From: a virus | Virus record (IMG/VR): IMGVR_UViG_3300027749_000532 | Span: 1-21,261 of that record | Strand: one strand, 5' to 3' | DNA: 21,261 nt | In this document: one piece after another, positions 311 to 17,119 of the stretch | Layout of the letters: each line of letters opens with the position of its first letter | Numbering within the stretch: position 1 is the first letter of the stretch | The notes under the pieces: model-generated | What the model was told of the DNA's origin: nothing | The model's input: the letters and a program-made list of their open reading frames with translations, nothing else | Database searches by the model: none | Program-made: the position numbers and the translations under genes

Positions 311-476
311 CTATGACTATGTGATTGTCGATATTCGGTTATCCAATTTATTGGGTGATGACACTCATCTTGCCTACAAACAGGTAATCCCTTTGTCTTT
401 TTTGACATCCCGTAACTACAAATGGTTAGAGAAAATTATTGCCATCATCAATGACTTGGAGGCTAAAGATGTCTGA
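303..476 (+). CDS. Small hypothetical early protein, 57 aa
   Basis: I do not recognise a family. The ATG at 303 is preferred over the in-frame TTG at 288 because GAGGGGG lies just upstream with good spacing and the product then starts MSDYDY. The protein is mildly acidic at its N terminus and has a Trp- and Ile-rich helix-like C-terminal half (WLEKIIAIINDLEAKDV). It overlaps the previous gene by 8 bases and the next by 8 bases, and both overlaps use the same ATGTCTGA string. Such translational coupling supports it being a real gene of the operon. No membrane segment or metal motif is visible. Confidence 0.6.
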   Translation: MSDYDYVIVDIRLSNLLGDDTHLAYKQVIPLSFLTSRNYKWLEKIIAIINDLEAKDV

Positions 477-1365
477 TTTCAGTTCTGAAACACGCAATAG
501 CGCCATCTGGTCTGGTGACGCCCGGATGATTGCCCAAGGCAAGGCCAACCAAGTCATCCTGACAAAGCTGGGACGGATGCCTATCCCTGACCTATCTGAC
601 GTGGAGGCCGTGCAAATGGGTCACGTTATGGAACCCGTTATCGGGCGGCTGGCGCAGGAGCGCCTGGGTATCGACCTGGAGAAGATTGAGGACGCATTTA
701 CGCATCCCACCGAGAGCTGGCTTAAATCACACTTTGACTTTGTGGGGCGCGAGAATGGTAAACCTGTTTTGGTCGAGGCTAAGAACTACAACGCAGGTAC
801 GCGCAACAAGTTTGATCCTGATACTGGACTTATGCCTGCTGCGGATCTGGCTCAGGTTGTGCACGAAGCGACCGTATTCGGCTGCCAGGTGGTTTATCTT
901 GCCGTGCTATTTGGTGGTCAAGAGTTTGTGCTTATTCGCACGGAAGTTACTGACCAGATGAAGGCAGACCACACTCGTCTCATGGCTAACGTCTGGGGCA
1001 ATGTGGTGAACAAGACGACCCTGCCGCCAGAAGATACAGAACAGGCGAAGCTGCTGTATCCAATATCTGCTGATTCCGGAAAGATAGCTTCAGGGGCCGT
1101 AGAAGGTGCTTGCCAAGCCTTGTCGCGAGTGAAGCAGCAGATAAAGCAACTAGAAAACACGGAAGAGCAACTGCTAACAATGCTGCAAGGCTACATGCAG
1201 GAGAGTGAGCGGCTGGTGAACGTGGAGGGATCTGTGCTGGCTACGTGGAAGTCTGCAAAGATTAGCAAGTCTTTTGACAGCAAGCTGTTCCAGTCTGCCA
1301 TGCCTGACATCTACAACAAGTTTGTGATGGACAAGCAGGGAAGCCGTCGTTTCCTTCTGAAGTGA
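469..1365 (+). CDS. YqaJ-type phage exonuclease (alkaline/lambda exonuclease-like)
   Basis: The 298-residue product matches the YqaJ viral-recombinase fold, a PD-(D/E)XK nuclease related to lambda exonuclease. Visible motifs in order are a conserved helix GHVMEPVIGRLAQERLG with Glu55, an Asp at 90 in SHFDFVG, the catalytic pair E103-x-K105 in LVEAKNY, and Gln129 in DLAQVVHEA on the following helix. The expected role is 5'-3' resection of double-strand ends to give 3' tails for the RecT-like annealase encoded at 1697-2470. A coiled-coil-like stretch lies at about 215-245 (SRVKQQIKQLENTEEQL). The ATG at 469 has GGAGG upstream; the longer in-frame start at 439 lies inside the previous gene and is rejected. 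It overlaps the previous gene by 8 bases. The family call is firm; activity is inferred. Confidence 0.85.
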   Translation: MSDFSSETRNSAIWSGDARMIAQGKANQVILTKLGRMPIPDLSDVEAVQMGHVMEPVIGRLAQERLGIDLEKIEDAFTHPTESWLKSHFDFVGRENGKPVLVEAKNYNAGTRNKFDPDTGLMPAADLAQVVHEATVFGCQVVYLAVLFGGQEFVLIRTEVTDQMKADHTRLMANVWGNVVNKTTLPPEDTEQAKLLYPISADSGKIASGAVEGACQALSRVKQQIKQLENTEEQLLTMLQGYMQESERLVNVEGSVLATWKSAKISKSFDSKLFQSAMPDIYNKFVMDKQGSRRFLLK

Positions 1366-1373
1366 GGCGCAAA

Positions 1374-1700
1374 ATGAACATAGAAGATTATTTCCCACCG
1401 TGTTTTGAAGATAAAAAACAATACAGGGAATGGAAGCTGCTCTCTATGAAGAGTTGCAGTTACAGATATGTTGATTATTGCGAAGACTGTACTTTAGCGT
1501 ACCAATCCAAAATGGTAAGAGAAAGACGGTGTACGAATCCTAAACTTGATTTAGTTGAGTTTCAAGACAAACACAAGCGTGATGACATATCCAAAGAAGC
1601 ACCAGGTAAATTTAGCATAGAAGATACACCTTTGGCCGACGTTTGGGAAAATATGTTAGGCGTTTTAACCAAGAAACAAAAAAAAGGAAGTCTCCAATGA
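1374..1700 (+). CDS. Cys-rich hypothetical protein between exonuclease and annealase
   Basis: This 108-residue protein carries cysteines at 10, 28, 36, 39 and 53, with a clear CEDC pair at 36-39 followed by YQSKMVRERRC. This resembles phage proteins with a CxxCTxxYQxKM...C signature, suggesting a small zinc site that might bind nucleic acid. The C-terminal half is charged and ends with a Lys-rich stretch (LTKKQKKGS). The gene is visibly more AT-rich than its neighbours, which may point to separate acquisition. The start at 1374 has GAGG upstream; an in-frame GTG at 1362 would overlap the exonuclease stop and is less likely. The stop overlaps the next start as ATGA. The precise role is unknown. 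Confidence 0.65.
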   Translation: MNIEDYFPPCFEDKKQYREWKLLSMKSCSYRYVDYCEDCTLAYQSKMVRERRCTNPKLDLVEFQDKHKRDDISKEAPGKFSIEDTPLADVWENMLGVLTKKQKKGSLQ

Positions 1701-2470
1701 CTAACGCTCTTGTACCAGTTGGTGACATCGAGAAGATGGCTATTGCCATCGCCAAGTCGAAGATGTTCGGCATGAAGACGCCAGAAGAGGCTTTTGCGCT
1801 GATGTTGATAGCGCAAGCAGAGGGTATGCACCCTGCTATCGCAGCGCGTGATTATCACGTCATTCAGGGCCGTCCTACGCTGAAGGCAGATGCCATGCTT
1901 GCGCGGTTTCAGAATGCCGGCGGGAAGGTTCAGTGGGAGGTTTACACGGATGCAGAGGTGACAGGCGTGTTTTCTCACCCGTCCGGAGGCTCTCTCAAGC
2001 TGACGTGGACGTTTGCCCAAGCCAAGTCTATAGGTCTTACAGGCAAGGACAACTGGCGCAACTACCCTCGAGCCATGCTACGCGCACGGTGCATCTCAGA
2101 AGGCATCAGAACGGTCTATCCTGGCTGTGTGGTGGGCACATACACGGCAGAGGAGCTAGAGGAGATACCAGCGCCAGCAGAAACACCAAAAACTTTGGAG
2201 GTGGTGGAGGAAGTTGAGAAGCAATACAAATTGTGGATTCCAAATCAAGAAGAGCCTTACTCTACCTATGACACCCCAGAGGAGTGGAAAGCAGGGTTTG
2301 ACGCACTTGTGAAGCGCATCACCCATAGCCCCAAGTTCTCTGAGGAAGTGAAGGAAGAGAAGCTGGACGGCCTCAAGGCTTGCAACTTGGATATGTTGGA
2401 ATATTTTAATTGGGTTGGTGATTACGATAAAGCAGAAATGCATGGAAAGGAAGTTAATCATGGGGAATGA
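1697..2470 (+). CDS. recT: RecT-family single-strand annealing protein
   Basis: The 257-residue product has the features of RecT/Bet-type phage annealases: an N-terminal helical part with PEEAFALMLIAQAEGMHP and the RPTLKADAMLA segment, then the diagnostic KDNWRNYPRAMLRARCISEG block followed by GVYTAEE-like residues (VVGTYTAEEL). It should pair complementary single strands made by the exonuclease at 469-1365, and the two form a RecET/Red-like module. After about residue 160 there is an acidic, Pro/Glu-rich extension with no recognised domain, typical of the variable tails in this family. The ATG at 1697 overlaps the upstream stop (ATGA) and has GGAAG upstream; a longer in-frame start at 1643 lacks support. 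The last 60 bases are AT-rich. Confidence 0.85.
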   Translation: MTNALVPVGDIEKMAIAIAKSKMFGMKTPEEAFALMLIAQAEGMHPAIAARDYHVIQGRPTLKADAMLARFQNAGGKVQWEVYTDAEVTGVFSHPSGGSLKLTWTFAQAKSIGLTGKDNWRNYPRAMLRARCISEGIRTVYPGCVVGTYTAEELEEIPAPAETPKTLEVVEEVEKQYKLWIPNQEEPYSTYDTPEEWKAGFDALVKRITHSPKFSEEVKEEKLDGLKACNLDMLEYFNWVGDYDKAEMHGKEVNHGE

Positions 2471-2786
2471 ACACCGCGAGATGCCAGGCAGTGGCGTAGC
2501 TTTTTGGGAGACTGTGAAGAAGTCTGACAAGGGGCCAGACTACAAAGGCTTTGTTACGCTGGAGATGGATTACAAGGCTGGAGAGAAGTTGAAGATGGCC
2601 TTCTGGCTCAAGAACACCAGCAACGGGAATACGCTGTTGGCAATCAAAGAGGACAACTACAGCAAGCGTATGAACATGGAGAAGGATACGCCTCGGGAGT
2701 ACGAGCCTAAACCTAGAGTGCAGCCAACTCGTCAGCAGCCGCCGCGCAGGGCTGTAGATCTTGATGACGATTCTGTTCCGTTCTAA
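2460..2786 (+). CDS. Small protein with SSB-like acidic C-terminal tip
   Basis: This 108-residue protein has a compact N-terminal part (about 1-70), then a disordered-looking Pro/Gln/Arg-rich linker (79-97: PREYEPKPRVQPTRQQPPRR) and the final tip DLDDDSVPF. That layout closely copies bacterial SSB, whose linker ends in DFDDDIPF, the peptide that docks RecO, RecQ, exonuclease I and other partners. The N-terminal part looks short for a full OB fold, so calling it an SSB is uncertain. Its place directly after the RecT gene supports a role in single-strand DNA handling or partner recruitment. The ATG at 2460 has AAGGA upstream and overlaps the RecT gene by 11 bases. The tip is seen directly; the function is inferred. 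Confidence 0.7.
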   Translation: MGNEHREMPGSGVAFWETVKKSDKGPDYKGFVTLEMDYKAGEKLKMAFWLKNTSNGNTLLAIKEDNYSKRMNMEKDTPREYEPKPRVQPTRQQPPRRAVDLDDDSVPF

Positions 2787-3106
2787 TGGCAAAAGAATCT
2801 CCTACCACCCGATCTCTGGCTCTCTTGCGTGAGCAGGGTTACACCGTTGCGGTGGTGGAGAAATGGAATCCACACGCTAGGATTCGCCAGGATCTCTTTG
2901 GGTTCATCGATATCCTAGCTATTAAACGTGGCGAGACGCTGGCAGTTCAGGCAACTGCTGCTGGTGTTTCTGCCCGTTTGAAGAAGATTAACGACAGCGA
3001 ACTACTACCGAAAGTGAGGGAAGCAGGATGGACTATACAAATCTGGGGTTGGACAAAGTCAGCAAAGACTGGGAAGTATGTCCTGAGAGTTATCGACATC
3101 TCTTGA
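2786..3106 (+). CDS. PD-(D/E)XK-like nuclease-fold protein
   Basis: The 106-residue product reads like a minimal restriction-endonuclease/Holliday-resolvase-like fold: a first helix (RSLALLREQGYTVAVVEKW), the RQDLFGFIDILAI strand with Asp36 and Asp42, then TLAVQAT, where the usual E-x-K is Q55-x-T57, followed by an Arg/Lys helix (VSARLKKI) and a C-terminal GWTIQIWGW strand. Proteins with DLFGF(I/A)D(I/V)LA...AVQ(A/T)T are frequent in phages and are related in pattern to VRR-NUC nucleases. With Glu and Lys replaced, catalysis is uncertain: it could be a structure-specific nuclease or a non-catalytic binder. It starts in the TAATG junction after the previous gene and sits in the recombination operon. 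Confidence 0.7.
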   Translation: MAKESPTTRSLALLREQGYTVAVVEKWNPHARIRQDLFGFIDILAIKRGETLAVQATAAGVSARLKKINDSELLPKVREAGWTIQIWGWTKSAKTGKYVLRVIDIS

Positions 3107-16471: not shown

Positions 16472-16698
16472 CTGCACCCCCAACGTTTACGTGCGGCTTT
16501 GCCGCGCTCACCTGTCCAGCTTTTGCTTCTGGCACAGAACGATTTGTGTCTTGGCCCCGACTTCTGTGGAGCCTTCAAATTGCTTCCAGTAGATCTGTTG
16601 TACTTGGCCCTGCCTTTCGCAGTCAAGCCCCCGCCCTTGCGGACAGATTGTTTTTCACCCCTGCCGACAGATAGGTTGGGGCCTTTCTTTCTAGCCAT
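16468..16698 (-). CDS. Basic small protein with KGGGLTAKGRAKYNR motif (DUF6321-like), 76 aa
   Basis: The 76-residue product has 23 Lys/Arg and only two Glu. Its centre is KGGGLTAKGRAKYNRSTGSN followed by LKAP, then RHKSFCARSKSW and a final AARKRWGCR with two Cys. I associate this KGGGLxAKGRxKYNR...SFCAR...RRWxC pattern with the family named DUF6321, found in many phages and large viruses; the name should be checked. The function is unknown; nucleic-acid binding is plausible from charge. The ATG at 16698 overlaps the upstream peptidase gene by 8 bases; a longer in-frame start at 16722 would deepen the overlap and adds unconserved residues. It ends in an ATGA overlap with the next basic mini-gene. 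Confidence 0.75.
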   Translation of the reverse strand: MARKKGPNLSVGRGEKQSVRKGGGLTAKGRAKYNRSTGSNLKAPQKSGPRHKSFCARSKSWTGERGKAARKRWGCR

Positions 16699-17119
16699 AC
16701 AAGCGCGTACCTTCTTTGTCAATGATTAGCACTTGACCACGGGGTGCGCTGGTTTCTTCGTTTGGCACAGAAATGTGCGTCCAGCGGTCAAACTCTCGAA
16801 TGAGTTGGTCATACGGCAACTTGGCAGTCATTATTGCCTTTACCACTTCATCAGGCGTCATGCCTGGCACTCGTAGGTCTGCCGCACAGCCGATCCTATG
16901 TTGGCTGGTGTCTTTAGACCCAACGGCATCATTGACTTTTTTTGACCTGAAAGCGGAGTTGACCATGATGGGCTTTCCTCCAAGTACCGTTTTGACGTTT
17001 TCAAGAAACGCTGCAAGGCGTCGAAGGTTTGCAAGTTCTGTTTCATTAGGCGTGTTCTCAAACTCACGATGGTCTGTGTGAGTCAACTCTTCTAGAGTAA
17101 AGTGTTCAGTCAGATTCAT
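16691..17119 (-). CDS. Peptidase M15-type endolysin (peptidoglycan peptidase), 142 aa
   Basis: The fold markers are clear: an N-terminal MNLTEHFTLEELTHTDH start, the substrate strand PIMVNSAFRSKKVND, the zinc motif SQHRIGCAAD (SxHxxGxAxD, ligands His74 and Asp81), and the third ligand His115 in RWTHIS. This is the M15 family (Peptidase_M15_3-like), which cuts peptide cross-links or stems of peptidoglycan. It has no signal peptide, so release should depend on a holin, and the adjacent 17116-17610 gene is the best candidate. The ATG overlaps that gene's stop (ATGA), coupling the two. It could be an endolysin or, less likely, a virion-borne wall peptidase. Confidence 0.85.
   Translation of the reverse strand: MNLTEHFTLEELTHTDHREFENTPNETELANLRRLAAFLENVKTVLGGKPIMVNSAFRSKKVNDAVGSKDTSQHRIGCAADLRVPGMTPDEVVKAIMTAKLPYDQLIREFDRWTHISVPNEETSAPRGQVLIIDKEGTRLYG

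Follow-up and report, generated by a model that had tools for sequence, protein, structure and literature searches.

A phage protein joining a bacterial SSB-type tip to a small, distinct core: a probable minimal SSB of a RecE/RecT-like recombination operon

The virus record analyzed here (21,261 bases; hereafter the window) encodes, within a RecE/RecT-like recombination operon, a protein of 108 amino acids (translation of 2460–2786, + strand) whose C-terminus reads RRAVDLDDDSVPF. We consider this protein, referred to below as mini-SSB, likely to serve the recombination module as a minimal phage SSB-type protein, with a core that would bind ssDNA and an acidic tip that would dock the RecT-like protein encoded next to it. 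The original prediction described the tip DLDDDSVPF, following a Pro/Gln/Arg linker, as a mimic of the bacterial SSB tail. This is borne out by the translation and by a control set of bacterial SSB proteins, in which 29 of 30 have acidic residues leading into a final [IV]PF, with DDDIPF the commonest form. The linker (residues 77–98) and the end of the protein (residues 99–108) carry net charges of +4 and −4, respectively.

Table 1. Features of the recombination operon and of the mini-SSB gene and protein, in window coordinates
Feature	Position	Strand	Basis
RecE/YqaJ-like recombination exonuclease	469..1365	+	phrog_434 E 1.1e-42; PF09588 E 2.1e-5; upstream in relatives too
112-aa ORF between exonuclease and annealing protein	1362..1700	+	No family match
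RecT-like single-strand annealing protein	1697..2470	+	phrog_561 E 1.5e-23; PF03837 just below cut-off
AAAGGA ribosome-binding motif, mini-SSB gene	2446..2451	+	8 nt 5' of ATG
Mini-SSB-like protein, 108 aa	2460..2786	+	ORF translation; phrog_18154 E 4.4e-5; family conserved
Predicted four-stranded core domain, residues 12–64	2493..2651	+	AlphaFold2 (45 sequences); conserved residues
Basic Pro/Gln/Arg linker, residues 77–98	2688..2753	+	Net +4; poorly conserved
SSB-type acidic tip DLDDDSVPF, residues 100–108	2757..2783	+	Tip kept in relatives
106-aa conserved ORF	2786..3106	+	In 77 related loci; no Pfam/PHROG match

The operon runs from the RecE/YqaJ-like exonuclease through a small ORF to the RecT-like annealing protein, mini-SSB, and the 106-aa ORF. 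The exonuclease ORF is open from 439, with the ATG at 469 as the likelier start. The mini-SSB gene begins within the last 11 nt of the RecT-like gene, and its stop codon overlaps the ATG of the 106-aa ORF (TAATG), which places the gene in a tightly packed operon. The 106-aa ORF carries the motif D-L-[FW]-G-[FW]-x-D-[IL]-L-x-I ... x-V-Q-[AV]-T, a pattern that would be compatible with a small nuclease of the PD-(D/E)XK type. Genes matching phrog_434 and phrog_561, as expected of a RecE/RecT-type module, lie beside mini-SSB, and this layout is kept across relatives. Relatives were gathered from viral contigs, where 216 loci encode one, and the best 80 of 216 were kept. A RecT-like gene adjoins mini-SSB in 81 of 83 close-relative loci, and thus in all 81 that hold upstream sequence; the remaining two (L016 and L061) start at or within ~100 bases of the mini-SSB gene. 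The exonuclease is found upstream in 69 of these loci, the others being cut off upstream. Such constant linkage to the annealing protein gene of the same phage favors a function in phage recombination. Seventeen related records (32–57 kb) contain exactly one mini-SSB copy each and neither a PF00436 SSB nor a PF00476 PolA, with PF00436 the one SSB family searched; these absences are suggestive only, since the records carry no completeness estimate.

Among the 83 close relatives, the protein ends in [IVLC]PF in 79 and in PFN in 3, and runs off the contig end in 1; [IVLC]PF is therefore kept in all 82 complete proteins, 3 of them with one extra Asn. Relatives without the acidic tip, which the original prediction had named as contrary evidence, were thus absent from the complete close relatives. 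In the three PFN loci, a foreign insert carrying an HNH-like gene directly abuts the final Phe codon (AATTAGAACGGGTCTATAATGG) and so adds the Asn. The terminal codons differ among relatives (CCC, CCT, CCG, or CCA for Pro; TTC or TTT for Phe) with the amino acids unchanged, so that the protein end itself is what is conserved. The linker drifts among close relatives while the tip stays. Among the remaining 2,966 ORFs (≥60 aa) of these fetched loci, no similar acidic xPF end was found. An SSB-like end arising by coincidence in an unrelated small protein might be considered, given that xPF ends are short motifs; however, its retention in 82 of 82 proteins despite linker drift, the synonymous codon changes, and the empty control set make the probability of such a coincidence negligible. 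The tip is a selected feature, and a chance origin is rejected.

The core is conserved as strongly as the tip, which bears on a second proposal. As a decoy, mini-SSB would mimic the host SSB tail and sequester host SSB-binding proteins (e.g., RecO, ExoI, PriA, and RecQ), and its tip is indeed nearly identical to the ends of bacterial SSB. A bare decoy, however, would not need a core so conserved, and the gene in close relatives is strictly tied to the recombination operon and never found outside it; moreover, other phage SSBs use such tails for their own annealing protein (PMC5928155). Core conservation and this constant gene context make a decoy improbable. The original prediction had left the choice between a minimal ssDNA binder and a decoy. 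The phrog_18154 match, the RecE/RecT operon, and the retained tip lend better support to the former, and no positive evidence emerged for the latter.

Some members of the wider family do lack the tip (L085, L123, and L124). The first of these (L085:4328-4606, on a Novacetimonas maltaceti contig) is the only relative confirmed in a scan of bacterial genomes.

No Pfam match was obtained for mini-SSB or for any of 16 relatives. The protein does match phrog_18154, "single strand DNA binding protein," with residues 14–108 aligned to positions 9–105 of the 105-position profile. Residues G12, K24, P26, D27, G30, G41, W49, G56, and the terminal PF are near-invariant in the family, and the window subfamily is homologous to a Mae-JY35-like subfamily (hhalign probability 97.3%). 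Annotated phage relatives, reached through an intermediate sequence, belong to phrog_18154 or phrog_7364 and include proteins of Acinetobacter phage SH-Ab 15497 (AUG85480.1), Vibrio phage VP2 (YP_024430.1), and Vibrio phage VpV262 (NP_640282.1); a tblastn search of a phage collection with the window protein gave no match, to these named phages or to any other. They share with the window protein a core of the form G-x-[LV]-[FW] ... PD[YF]xG ... xxW ... G, a linker, and an SSB-type tip (DLDDDLPF or DFDDDIPF). The window subfamily is only distantly related to them and differs in a longer connection between strands 2 and 3 (EMDYKAG), in a predicted helix after strand 4, and in its association with a RecE/RecT-like operon rather than with PolA.

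Because PHROGs and several GenBank records already label relatives as SSB, the protein belongs to a known kind. That label may itself rest mainly on the tail; the GenBank note for the VpV262 protein reads "similar to single strand DNA binding protein C-terminus." Bacterial SSB (PF00436) and the window protein both place an acidic xPF tip after a flexible linker, but the bacterial core spans ~110 residues against ~60, and similarity to the OB domain is not detectable. Compared with the OB domains of 30 bacterial SSBs, the mini-SSB core gave an hhalign probability of 0.5%, inside the shuffled-column controls, and in a full-length profile comparison only the last 10 residues aligned. By sequence, the tip is the only SSB-like part of the protein.

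AlphaFold2 modeling on 45 sequences gave a mean pLDDT of 75.2, with core block means mostly between 76 and 93; an earlier model from 16 close relatives reached 53.5. Strands are predicted at residues 12–16, 28–33, 43–52, and 58–64, followed by a helix at 67–76. The earlier estimate of about 70 residues for the N-terminal part was right, with a confidently predicted domain at ~12–64 and the helix extending to 76. The doubt raised over a standard OB fold is likewise supported, both by the profile comparison and by the model, which predicts four strands and a helix; an OB barrel has five strands. A divergent, truncated OB-fold SSB, remotely descended from bacterial SSB, would have the same tail, and the gene context suggests the same general role; OB cores can also be as small as ~60 residues, the approximate length of the core barrel in Enc34 ORF6 (PMC5686142). 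However, the profile result above and the absence of a recognized OB hit for the predicted strands and terminal helix among the solved-structure matches listed make this origin very improbable.

Solved structures were searched by sequence, both with the protein alone and with a 45-row profile, but no credible match resulted; hits to T-cell receptor and xylanase entries (E 0.03–0.6) were rejected. With the model as query, Foldseek found no PDB match at E ≤ 0.001; the best VIA-align hit (Z 3.9) fell among mixed folds. No SSB or other OB-fold protein was recognized among the structure matches listed, nor was there a significant fold match of any kind; we therefore claim no fold for the core. Pur-alpha and PC4 bind ssDNA. 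Their rows in the structure comparison (Z 3.8 and 3.2, respectively) had large rmsd, stood among unrelated folds, and did not rise above background; like SpoVG rows, they were not accepted. Bacterial PC4 (PF02229) sequences were present in 1 of 150 genomes.

The core does resemble DUF736 (PF05284; loci L133–L152) by profile–profile comparison, with an hhalign probability of 55%; the highest value reached by 100 column shuffles was 2.5%. The resemblance spans ~40 residues (PDY ... AWxk ... G..yLSl) and is a profile–profile likeness only, as none of the 16 relatives matched DUF736 at the Pfam gathering score. DUF736 proteins are ~100 residues long, and those fetched lack an SSB tip; the family is carried by all ICEs compared in Mesorhizobium (PMC8627217). 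For DUF736 of conjugative elements, this resemblance may offer a first functional hint. It is possible, though we hold it only tentatively, that the ~60-residue domain represents a distinct non-OB ssDNA-binding fold furnished with a bacterial-type SSB tail and serving RecT-, Erf-, and Sak-like proteins, with DUF736 as a distant, probably ssDNA-related cousin.

Beyond the close relatives, gene neighborhoods vary. Distant relatives adjoin Sak-like (L096 and L105) or Erf-like (L098, L101, L102, and L125) annealing proteins, with RecE-like exonucleases also nearby, and in Microcystis phage Mae-JY35 the relative directly follows an "essential recombination function" gene. In other named phages, relatives adjoin PolA, helicase, or adenylosuccinate synthetase genes. 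At least three types of annealing protein thus occur beside members of the family. These neighborhoods weigh on the main rival to an ssDNA-binding core, namely an adaptor without ssDNA binding of its own, whose beta domain would hold the annealing protein or exonuclease and whose tip would tie the complex to host SSB-docking proteins. The domain's lack of likeness to the OB domain of SSB, the constant pairing of the annealing protein gene with mini-SSB, and the near-neutral charge of the whole protein are all consistent with an adaptor. However, an association with unrelated annealing proteins, or with PolA or helicase genes only, is easier to accommodate if the common ligand is ssDNA, and the PHROGs family label is SSB; we regard the adaptor as rather unlikely.

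Under the preferred reading, in which mini-SSB is an ssDNA-binding member of the recombination module, the RecE-like exonuclease would make single-stranded ends, and the ~60-residue beta-rich N-terminal domain would bind or coat ssDNA such as these ends, probably as an oligomer. The flexible basic linker would present the acidic xPF tip, which would in turn dock the neighboring RecT-like annealing protein—its probable partner—onto the coated ssDNA; the same tip may engage host SSB-binding proteins as well. In Vibrio phage VP2 (L088:3827-4303), two copies of the small domain are fused in one protein, and in Manatee Spring-like phages (L086:3522-3770, L126–L130, and L132) a tail-less domain gene of the same family overlaps the start of the tailed gene. 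These paired copies suggest a working unit of at least two domains.

The closest tested precedent for such tail-borne recruitment, by analogy, is the SSB of phage HK620 and its partner Sak4. Described as a bona fide SSB, the HK620 protein is 95 kDa in solution and ends in the tip NDYPPF; without its last six residues, Sak4 does not bind SSB-covered ssDNA and annealing is not stimulated (PMC5928155). Both are SSB-type phage proteins with an xPF tail, and that of HK620 works with a phage annealing protein (PMC5928155); the core of the window protein is different from that of HK620 SSB and smaller, and its neighbor is RecT-like. Enc34 ORF6 and T7 gp2.5-type SSBs (DUF2815) are also phage-borne with an acidic C-terminal tail, but their OB fold is complete and carries a long capping helix, and their tail is long (acidic in 16 of the 29 last residues) and lacks the DDDxPF tip (PMC5686142).

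The mini-SSB family is widespread and almost unstudied, and no published structure or biochemistry for it was found in the open-access papers searched. What is added here is the restriction of SSB likeness, by sequence, to the tip, the range of annealing proteins accompanied, and the resemblance of the core to DUF736. If ssDNA binding holds true, mini-SSB would rank as unusually small for an SSB, and its core would differ from the OB domain of bacteria. It would then show that different DNA-binding modules can bear the partner-docking tail, and the operon would offer an SSB and an annealing protein that are naturally matched. Compatibility between SSB and annealing protein matters for recombineering in new hosts (PMC12262390).

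Elsewhere in the window, minus-strand late genes encode an M15-type endolysin (PF08291, phrog_894; 16691-17119) and an SU10-adaptor-like head protein (PF24175; 18297-18926). In several related loci, HNH-like genes lie between mini-SSB and the 106-aa ORF (L016:300-830, L024:1740-2250, and L082:1225-1760), with others at the same position in L017:4300-4950 and L042:4290-4860; the HNH-like assignment relies on a cysteine/histidine pattern rather than a family search, and the genes are probably homing endonuclease genes.
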